NCBI RefSeq assembly: GCF_001510655.1
Contig: NZ_LMVC01000001.1
Location: forward strand, 198,574 to 262,573
Reading direction: 5' to 3'
Source: Fictibacillus sp. FJAT-27399
Lineage (GTDB): Bacteria > Bacillota > Bacilli > Bacillales > Fictibacillaceae
Length of the DNA stretch: 64,000 bases
Shown: piece after piece, positions 24,803 to 29,821 of the stretch
Layout: each line of letters starts with the position of its first letter
Position numbering within the stretch: the stretch's first letter is position 1
Notes under the pieces: model-generated
What the model was told of the DNA's origin: nothing
Database searches by the model: none
The model's input: only the letters and a program-made list of their open reading frames with translations
Made by a program: the position numbers and the translations under genes

Positions 24803-24831
24803 TGGACAAAAAACAAAAAATATCTTACATT
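24803..24831 (+). promoter_or_regulatory. Sigma-A promoter of fabH-fabF
   Basis: TGGACA at 24803-24808 and TACATT at 24826-24831, spaced by 17 bp, 76 bp before fabH. The -10 box overlaps the FapR-like operator. Confidence 0.6.
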
Positions 24832-24846
24832 AGTACCAGGTCTTAA
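24830..24846 (+). promoter_or_regulatory. FapR operator
   Basis: TTAGTACCAGGTCTTAA is a close match to the FapR box of Bacillus, an imperfect palindrome of the TTAGTACCTGGTACTAA type. FapR is released by malonyl-CoA, so fabH-fabF would be induced when fatty acid precursors accumulate. Confidence 0.85.
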
Positions 24847-24906
24847 AAATTGATACTAAGTTAGCTGGCGAACAAAATATAAAAAATAAACCAAAGGGGT
24901 AATGAC

Positions 24907-25839
24907 ATGAATGCTGGAATACTGGGTTTAGGTGCTTATGTCCCTGAGAAAGTGTTAACAAATTTCGATTTGGAAAAAATGGTAGATACAAGTGATGAAT
25001 GGATTCGTACTCGAACAGGAATTGAAGAACGCAGAATAGCATCTGACGATATCAATACATCACACATGTCTGAAAATGCTGCACGAGAGGCGCTTAAAAA
25101 CGCTGATATGAATGCAGAGGACATTGATCTGATTGTTGTGGCTACCGTCACTCCTGACAGGCCTTTTCCTTCCGTTGCTTGTATGATCCAGGATCGGCTG
25201 GGAGCGGTTAATGCTGTTGCTATGGATATAAGTGCAGCCTGCTCTGGGTTCATGTATGGAATGGTGATCGCTAAACAATTCATTGAATCGGGAACCTACA
25301 AAAATGTTTTGGTAGTCGGAGCTGAAAAATTGTCCAGAATTACAGACTGGAATGACAGAAATACAGCAGTGCTGTTTGGTGACGGAGCAGGTGCTGCTGT
25401 AATGTCGACAGTTTCTGAAGGCAGAGGGATCCTTTCCTTTGAACTGGGTTCAGACGGCAGAGGAGCGAAACACCTTTATCAGGACAAATATCTTTATATG
25501 AACGGCCGGGAAGTGTTTAAATTTGCTGTCCGCCAAATGGGTGAATCATCCATGAACGTTGTTGAAAAAGCTGGATTGACTAAGGATGATGTAGATTACC
25601 TTATTCCGCATCAAGCCAACATCCGGATCATGGAAGCAGCTCGGCAGCGGCTTGATCTACCGAAAGAAAAAATGGCAGTAACCGTAAATAAATATGGAAA
25701 TACTTCATCAGCATCTATTCCTATGGCTATTTCTGATGCCTTAAAAAATGGTAAAATAAAAGATGATGATCTGCTAGTACTCGTTGGATTTGGAGGCGGC
25801 CTTACATGGGGTGCAGTTGCACTTCGGTGGGGAAGATAA
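24907..25839 (+). CDS. fabH: 3-oxoacyl-ACP synthase III FabH
   Basis: Initiates fatty acid synthesis by condensing acyl-CoA primers with malonyl-ACP (310 residues). The catalytic triad is visible: Cys in AACSGFMYG near residue 112, His in IPHQANIRI near 237 and Asn in [10 protein letters not shown] near 267. In Bacillus the FabH enzymes prefer branched primers that give iso/anteiso acids; the specificity here is inferred. It is 36 bp upstream of fabF, as in the B. subtilis fabHA-fabF operon, and is preceded by a FapR site. Confidence 0.95.
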
Positions 25840-25875: not shown

Positions 25876-27114
25876 ATGAAAAGACGCGTAGTAATTACAG
25901 GAATGGGAGCCGTTTCTCCCCTTGGAAATAGTGTAGAAGAAACATGGAACCGAATCGTTGCAGGTGAATCTGGTGTTGGCCCGCTAACACGCAGGGACCG
26001 GGATAAATTCCCGGTAAAAGTAGCTGCAGAAGCTACAGAATTTGATCCCCAGGAATTCATGGACCGCAAAGAAGCAAGAAAAATGGACCGTTTTACTCAA
26101 TTTGCAGTAGCTGCCTCTAAAATGGCAGTGGAAGATGCAGAGCTTGACATTACAGATGAGATCGCACCGCGTGTAGGGGTGTGGATCGGTTCTGGAATCG
26201 GCGGAATGGATACGCATGAAGAACAATTCCGTGTTTTTGAGAAAAAAGGCTACAGAAGGGTCAGCCCGTTCTTTGTACCGATGATGATTCCGGATATGGC
26301 AGCAGGACAGGTTTCCATTATTCTTGGAGCAAAAGGTATGAACTCCTGTACGGTAACGGCTTGTGCATCAGGTGCAAACTCCATTGGTGACGCGTTTAAA
26401 GTGATTCAGCGCGGAGATGCGGATGCGATGATCTGCGGAGGAACTGAGGCACCGATCACAGATATGGCATTGGCTGGTTTTTGCCAAGCTGGAGCACTCT
26501 CCTACAATGAGGATCCTGCAACAGCCAGCCGTCCATTTGATGCGAACCGCAGCGGTTTCGTCATTGGTGAAGGTGCAGGTATTCTTGTCCTTGAAGATCT
26601 TGAGTTTGCAAAAAAACGCGGAGCGAAAATTTACGCGGAAATCGTAGGCTATGCAGGCACCGGTGATGCCCATCACATTACAGCCCCGGCTCCAGGAGGA
26701 GAAGGCGGAGTCAGAGCCATGACACAAGCTGTTGAAGACAGCGGTCTTGCATTAGAAGAAATTGATTACATCAATGCTCATGGAACAAGCACAGATTATA
26801 ATGATAAGTTTGAAACGATGGCGATCAAAGAAGTATTTGGAGAGCATGCTTATAAAGTGGCTGTCAGTTCAACAAAATCAATGACAGGGCATCTTTTAGG
26901 CGCGGCAGGTGGAATTGAAGCGATTTTCTCAGTAAAATCCATTCAAAACAGTATCATTCCTCCTACCATTAACTATGAAACAGCGGATCCGGAGTGTGAT
27001 CTGGATTACGTGCCGAATGAAGCAAGAAAAGCAGAAGTTAACGCTGTGCTCAGCAACTCTTTAGGCTTCGGCGGCCATAACGCAACACTTATCTTTAAAA
27101 AATACAGTGAGTAG
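25876..27114 (+). CDS. fabF: 3-oxoacyl-ACP synthase II FabF
   Basis: The elongating condensing enzyme (412 residues). It has Cys in [13 protein letters not shown] near residue 163, the His of HGTSTDYND near 303 and the His of GHLLGAAGG near 340, plus the N-terminal [15 protein letters not shown]. It adds two carbons from malonyl-ACP in each cycle. It is co-transcribed with fabH (36-bp gap, AAAGGAG site). Three tandem hairpins follow the stop codon immediately. Confidence 0.96.
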
Positions 27115-27240
27115 TACAAAATCTTGGTTGATTTTTTCAACCAAGATTTTTGTTTGTGTACAAAATGATGGTTGATTTTTTCAGCCAAGATATTTGTTTG
27201 TAATACAAAACCCTGGTTGATTCTATTAACCAGGGTTTTG
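27115..27240 (+). repeat. Three tandem hairpin repeats after fabF
   Basis: Three units of 44-45 bp starting with TACAAAA at 27115, 27159 and 27204. Each contains an inverted repeat: CTTGGTTGA / TCAACCAAG, ATGGTTGA / TCAGCCA (imperfect) and CCCTGGTT / AACCAGGG. Each is followed by a T-rich tract, so each could act as a terminator. Sequence similarity between units points to tandem duplication. Confidence 0.8.
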
Positions 27241-27336
27241 TGTTCTTTTCGGGATTTTTCTTCCCATGCCATAGAATAAATTGGACAACCTCTGACTATA
27301 CTGTTTTTAACAAAACGGTTAAGCGAGGGGTTGCAG

Positions 27337-28083
27337 ATGTTATATTTACGAGATGTTTGGGTGAATTGGTTCGAAGGTGAAGAAAATGGCTATAACGTTT
27401 GTGAGTTCCATGAGTGGAGAAAGGATGACTTTATTGAATTGCTCGATCAAGTTCCAATCGTGAAAATGGATTCTTCACTCTTTCATTATATTGAAAATGA
27501 ACTTAGCGATCTTCCAGATTCCCTTTTAGAGGAAGTACACCAAAAAGCATACGTAAGAAAAAACAACCAGAGAGTGCAGCTTGATCATTGTTTTATCATA
27601 ACGGATGAGAAGAAAACGATGGTGATTGACACGATGGGCTATCGTATCCCGATACGAAAGAGCAGACTGATTCCGAGACAGGAACAGCTCGTCTATGAAA
27701 TGGCGGAACAAATGGAGACCGCAACTTACACGTTCAAACCAGAAATCAAAGAAAAAGAGCATCATATCCTATCACCGGAACCGATTATCATGAGAGGGCT
27801 CACAAGAAAAGAAAGACAGTTAAAGCAGCTCTTGTTCATGGTGCTGGATCAGCTTCATACAACTAAAAATGTTGCGGAAGTGCGTTATTGGTATACGGAG
27901 TGGATGCCTGAGAATTACATGGCCATTCAGCGAATGGAATTTGAAGAAGCATGGGCAGCACTTTATTCTGAAATTAAAGACGGCTGGAGCGACCAGCATT
28001 ATGCAATCTGTGAACGATTAGTAAAAGGGCAGCCTTACTTTGAAAAGATATGGGAACTTGAGAACGGGACACACGTAAACTGA
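27337..28083 (+). CDS. yjbA: YjbA family (UPF0736) protein
   Basis: A 248-residue soluble protein of the UPF0736/YjbA family, recognised by the start [27 protein letters not shown] and by its position before trpS and the opp genes. The function is unknown. It is rich in Trp and acidic residues, and no catalytic motif is visible. The ATG at 27337 has GAGGGG six bases upstream; the TTG at 27331 overlaps that spacing. Repeat copy C starts 12 bp after the stop and probably supplies its terminator. Confidence 0.85.
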
Positions 28084-28095
28084 CCATGAAGCAAT

Positions 28096-28343
28096 AAGGG
28101 GCTGTCCTGAAAGTCGAAAATTGACCTTCAGGCAGCTCCTTTGCCGTGAAAAATCTTCAATGAAAAGTTGATTGGAGTGCAAGGTGCGAGACTCCTGCGG
28201 GACTAGCGTGACAGGTGAGACTCCCGCAGGCGCTTGCGCCAAAAAGTAGGCGTTCACGCCGGTAAGGCTCACCGCACGCCCCGCGGAAAGCGAGCAGCCT
28301 GGAGCGGAGATCAAAAGCTATCAGACTTCTTGGACAGCCCCTT
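28096..28343 (-). repeat. Full copy (C) of ~250 bp dispersed repeat, inverted
   Basis: The reverse complement of copies B and D over 248 bp, with the same terminal inverted repeat (AAGGGGCTGTCC / GGACAGCCCCTT). The terminator-like end is on the left, facing the yjbA 3' end. Its internal hairpin reads GGCGC-GCGCC (28229-28240), where copies B and D read GGTGC-GCACC: both arms change together. Confidence 0.9.
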
Positions 28344-28484
28344 ATTATGATCTTCAGGATTGAAGCCAGGGGTGGAGTTATGTGAATACTCATTTCGAGT
28401 AACGCTCAATTAAATCAAGATTCGGATTAAATCCCTAAATTAACAACTGCTTTTCCGCAAGATTCAAACTTCAAAAAACACATA

Positions 28485-28511
28485 GAAACCCCCACTTAAA
28501 GTGGAGGTTTC
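28485..28511 (-). terminator. Intrinsic terminator after trpS
   Basis: AAACCTCCACT-TTA-AGTGGGGGTTT on the minus strand, 18 bp after the trpS stop. The following T run is weak. Confidence 0.6.
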
Positions 28512-28528
28512 TTCACGTGTTCCGGGTT

Positions 28529-29790
<1,262 letters not shown>

Positions 29791-29821
29791 TTATCATCGC
29801 CAAGATCATTCAATTAAAATA

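Follow-up and report, generated by a model that had tools for sequence, protein, structure and literature searches.

Results and Discussion

Three hairpin units follow fabF

Three mutually related hairpin units stand in tandem behind fabF of Fictibacillus sp. FJAT-27399, and they very probably form a terminator cluster made by local duplication. The array lies in the window, the 64,000-nucleotide stretch of contig NZ_LMVC01000001.1 that was analyzed (Table 1). The repeat search found a direct-repeat family of three 44-nt copies, U1, U2 and U3, spaced 44 and 45 nt apart, with 100, 91 and 73% identity to the first copy. The first base of the array is also the last of the fabF stop codon, and the array ends before a co-directional DUF3603 gene, which we take to be yjbA. 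In every unit, inverted-repeat arms flank a TGGTTGA core. The preliminary description had placed the array at 27115–27240; it is present there, but the repeat search corrects its limits to 27114–27246.

Table 1. Features of the fabF–yjbA region (positions in the window).
Feature	Position	Strand	Description
fabH, beta-ketoacyl-ACP synthase III	24907..25839	+	ORF; Pfam ACP_syn_III and ACP_syn_III_C above cut-off; precedes fabF
fabF, beta-ketoacyl-ACP synthase II	25876..27114	+	ORF; Pfam ketoacyl-synt and Ketoacyl-synt_C
U1, terminator-like hairpin	27114..27157	+	Stem 27118-27131 / 27137-27150, 14 nt, perfect; -18.2 kcal/mol; T-rich tail
U2, weakened or hybrid terminator-like hairpin	27158..27201	+	7-bp perfect core 27169-27187; outer arms mismatched; -11.6 kcal/mol
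U3, most stable hairpin, T-rich	27203..27246	+	Arms 27202-27221 / 27225-27244, 20 nt, 90% complementary; -25.0 kcal/mol
Conserved leader or promoter-like block	27273..27336	+	Between array and yjbA; putative promoter role
yjbA-like gene (DUF3603)	27337..28083	+	Next gene 3' of the array, same direction as fabF
Terminator-like site of trpS-like gene	28512-28484	-	General terminator scan
trpS-like gene (by eye)	28529-29569	-	

The plus strand from 27095 to 27260 folds at -60.3 kcal/mol. Shuffled versions average -29.8 kcal/mol (sd 3.5, z = -8.8), and none of 200 shuffles was as good. Together with the repeat search, this confirms that the three related hairpin units noticed after fabF in the preliminary description are real. 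The minus strand of the region also folds well (z -7.2), because hairpins fold on both strands. A reverse-strand element was considered and is not needed, as the trpS-like gene has a terminator-like site of its own; a bidirectional role is possible. A known structured RNA family, such as a riboswitch or an attenuator, was also rejected: over the array, Rfam returned only a sub-threshold mir-973 match (23.6 bits, E 0.59; gathering score 63).

The G-C stem with a short loop near the stop codon, as in intrinsic terminators, is clear in U1 and U3, and U2 has it with its 7-bp core. A U-rich tract lies directly 3' of the stem in all three units. The 12 nt past the last G-C pair contain 9 T in U1, 6 in U2 (at the threshold) and 7 in U3, where part of the T run sits inside the extended stem. 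The general terminator scan lists U1 and U2 and misses U3, because the stem of U3 runs into its own T tract. The dedicated scan, in which T is counted from the last G-C pair onward, picks up all three. These hairpins lie on one strand, in one intergenic region and within 127 nt (27118–27244), and at least two such hairpins make a tandem cluster. A stem followed by T-rich DNA, as first described for each unit, is present throughout in the dedicated scan, but the units are unequal. U1 and U3 resemble strong intrinsic terminators. U2 is weaker because its arms no longer match: the outer 5' arm reads TGATGG and the outer 3' arm CCAAGA, which is also the U1 sequence.

At minimum energy, U1 and U2 pair with each other and form a nested structure of -32.0 kcal/mol, versus -29.8 kcal/mol for separate hairpins. 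U1 and U2 could then be one long hairpin, the 5' arm of U1 with the 3' arm of U2, acting as a processing site or a switch. The 3' arm of U2 does fit the 5' arm of U1 better than it fits its own arm, and nesting is better by 2.2 kcal/mol in the window and by 1.8 kcal/mol in a relative of the same species (G004). However, this energy difference is small, U1 should fold first during transcription, and no such fold exists in Fictibacillus terranigra. We consider the nested hairpin very unlikely. Just as unlikely is a version in which U1 and U2 co-evolve as the nested hairpin, with the 3' arm of U2 tracking the 5' arm of U1; transcripts escaping U1 would form a long stem that is processed or that protects the fabHF 3' end, and U3 would be the true final stop.

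Distribution of the array among relatives

Comparing the number of units in related genomes had been suggested at the outset. The strict scan of 77 distinct fabF-downstream stretches found three hairpins in 3, two in 0, one in 54 and none in 20, the last figure partly reflecting an undercount of single hairpins, because a mismatch, long loop or shorter T tract lets some of them escape the strict scan. A looser scan shows one hairpin each in F. gelatini, F. nanhaiensis and F. macauensis, for instance. The sample was built from 110 loci, 15 of them without a fabF match; the other 95 gave the 77 distinct stretches and 18 duplicates, most of them due to a genome listed under two identifiers. The relatives were the best 80 of at least 573, so that the wider Bacillales were sampled rather than exhausted.

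Among the 77 sampled, only the stretches of the window, F. terranigra and G004 have three hairpins. These genomes form one group in the fabF DNA tree of 14 rows, beside one-hairpin species, with a support of 88/90 for the fork, which is below the level starred by the tree program. F. fluitans, F. solisalsi and F. enclensis, the nearest one-hairpin species sampled, have a single GATGGTTGA...TCAACCATC hairpin (TCAGCCATC in F. enclensis) with a long T tract behind it. It resembles the array units in its place and in its TGGTTGA core, but is present in one copy instead of three. In other Fictibacillus species with a single fabF hairpin, the stem sequence is different.

The tandem duplication of a terminator, one origin offered in the preliminary description, is well supported by these data: the units are in register, three sister species have the same core in their single hairpin, and among the genomes sampled three hairpins occur only in three that group together. 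The simplest account would be that the array was gained once, in the common lineage of F. terranigra and the window's species. Because U2 of F. terranigra is so diverged, the array may instead have been gained more than once, or lost in the sister clade.

Divergence of the units

The U1 stem is ATCTTGG/CCAAGAT in the window and ATGATGG/CCATCAT in F. terranigra. Both arms have changed and the pairing is kept, a comparison of two species only, and one in which replacement by another unit could also produce such a change. U3 has CCCTGGTT/AACCAGGG in the window and F. terranigra alike. In G004, U2 shows the same arm mismatch as in the window (-12.0 kcal/mol). The F. terranigra units fold at -16.1 (U1), -9.8 (U2, poorly paired) and -16.6 kcal/mol (U3, with one bulge). 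Across the three array genomes, long stems are kept in U1 and U3 and not in U2. Relaxed sequence change in the units beyond the first, named beforehand, together with all transcripts ending at the first hairpin, as a sign against a role for the triplication, is seen in the pairing of U2 but not in U3.

In ungapped comparison, U1 of the window is identical to its neighbor U2 at 39 of 44 positions and to U1 of F. terranigra at 34 of 44. U2 of F. terranigra matches U1 of the window at 25 of 44 positions and U2 at 27 of 44. Since U1 and U2 of the window are more alike than the two U1 across species, an exchange between neighboring units or a second, later duplication is indicated.

The window and G004 differ at 5 of 132 nt of the array (27140, 27184, 27192, 27245 and 27246), 3 of them in U1–U2. 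Positions 27140 and 27184, which correspond to each other in U1 and U2, are A/G differences; the window and G004 have opposite arrangements, and either letter can pair. Positions 27245 and 27246 are at the end of the U3 tail, past its stem. In fabF the two genomes show 23 differences in 1236. Because the density of differences in the array is no lower than in fabF, slow change is no argument for constraint. Kept pairing, unlike the rate of change, is such an argument.

Proposed role of the array

From these sequences we infer that a single ancestral fabF terminator was duplicated in place, in the lineage from which the window's species and F. terranigra descend, and that the array now consists of three tandem intrinsic (Rho-independent) terminators. 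As the polymerase leaves fabF, the U1 stem and its U-rich tail would release most complexes. Those that read through would meet the weak U2 next and then U3, whose hairpin, the most stable of the three, would act as a back-up. The net effect would be a tighter termination of fabHF and the insulation of yjbA from read-through; yjbA has a conserved block just upstream of it, a putative promoter. U1 and U2 may have exchanged sequence by recombination or template switching, or been duplicated again later, with partial homogenization. U2 would be a mismatched hybrid under relaxed constraint. The extra units perhaps have some back-up value.

Whether the extra units matter is the point of a neutral account, in which slippage between repeats multiplied the terminator, the copies drift and only one unit is of importance. 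It has the same origin as the terminator cluster proposed here and differs only by denying the extra copies a role; the significance of these copies is left to it, and the odds of the two overlap. The occurrence of the array in only three grouped genomes among those sampled, the poor pairing of U2, the U1–U2 exchange expected of short direct repeats, and the undiminished density of differences between the window and G004 are all consistent with neutrality. Yet long stems persist in U1 and U3 of all three array genomes (the F. terranigra U3 having its one bulge), and both arms of U1 differ between species while still pairing. We regard neutrality of the extra copies as less likely than not, but as a serious alternative.

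A terminator hairpin that remains at the 3' end of a message commonly gives it some protection, and the fabHF mRNA would end in the stable hairpins of the array. Its main function might be such protection, which the preliminary description suggested for a highly expressed fabHF transcript, with stacked hairpins stopping 3'-5' exonucleases and lengthening the life of the message. More than one hairpin, however, would be present only on transcripts reading through U1, and U2 and U3 would be absent from most transcripts if U1 terminates well. F. fluitans, F. solisalsi and F. enclensis manage with one hairpin, and U2 is poorly paired in every array genome. Protection as the main function is thus improbable, and the terminator cluster is preferred.

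Rarity within the genome and known terminator clusters

The three related units could also suggest a dispersed repeat family or a mobile element inserted after fabF. The unit pattern has no further copy in the 4.5-Mb genome at up to 3 mismatches, and the array has no match in the plasmid collection. An inserted element was rejected for this genome, its probability being close to nil.

A back-up arrangement is familiar from the rrnB T1–T2 double terminator of E. coli, which stands behind a strongly expressed unit. The fabF array is like it in this respect. T1 and T2 are not known to be mutual repeats; the fabF array differs in consisting of mutual repeats, and it belongs to another gene and another phylum.

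The dedicated scan was applied to 464 kb, made up of the 64-kb window and another 400 kb of its genome. It found 386 same-strand clusters, of which 379 are single and 6 double, and the fabF array is the 1 triple. With a looser T threshold there are 550 clusters (535 single, 13 double and 2 triple); the hairpins of the second triple, on the minus strand, are by eye unlike one another. This rarity is valid only for the T-tract definition used, because the available part of PMC8355165 finds hairpin clusters to be common under a wider definition, with no T tract required.

Clusters of terminator hairpins are already described in that available part of PMC8355165, which reports them at termination sites in 13 genomes with RNA-seq and refers to an example in vivo in which a pair of tandem hairpins gave better termination than single hairpins. 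The fabF array is like those clusters, as far as the same text describes them, in having several hairpins on the transcribed strand within about 130 nt behind a stop codon. It is unlike them in that its units are recognizable repeats of each other, with a period of 44–45 nt, and occur in one clade only among those sampled. In a search of mainly open-access literature, by topic rather than by genus name, no report on Fictibacillus fabF terminators was found. The accessible portions of PMC8955417, PMC12207403 and PMC3498285 contain nothing on tandem terminators behind fabF.

The general picture of termination is unchanged, and the explanation is an ordinary one for a locally unusual feature. The array offers a small, clean natural example of a terminator that apparently multiplied where it stood and that can be compared with the single copy of sister species, and it could help to measure what extra terminators add.

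Neighboring genes

In the window yjbA is the gene right after fabF, and the convergent trpS-like gene comes next (27115–29569). In B. subtilis, yjaZ and the app genes are situated between fabF and yjbA; they are absent at the Fictibacillus locus here.

All 18 Fictibacillus loci examined carry the core motif of the block before yjbA. At 27273–27320 the block reads AGAATAA...GACAACCTCTGACTATACTG, then runs of T and A, and is near-identical by eye in all 18. It may be a leader, or a promoter with a putative likeness to a sporulation-sigma -10 element. The distance from the fabF stop codon to this block is about 0.9 kb in F. aquaticus and about 0.46 kb in F. macauensis, and about 80–175 nt in the other 16 loci; the two long gaps are perhaps insertions. 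In F. aquaticus the usual fabF hairpin is missing by the strict scan.

Upstream of the trpS-like gene, on the minus strand, a T-box leader (RF00230, 123.6 bits) covers 29576–29806. Upstream of fabH, ATTAGTACCAGGTCTTAAAA at 24829–24848 resembles the consensus of the FapR operator and is a candidate site.
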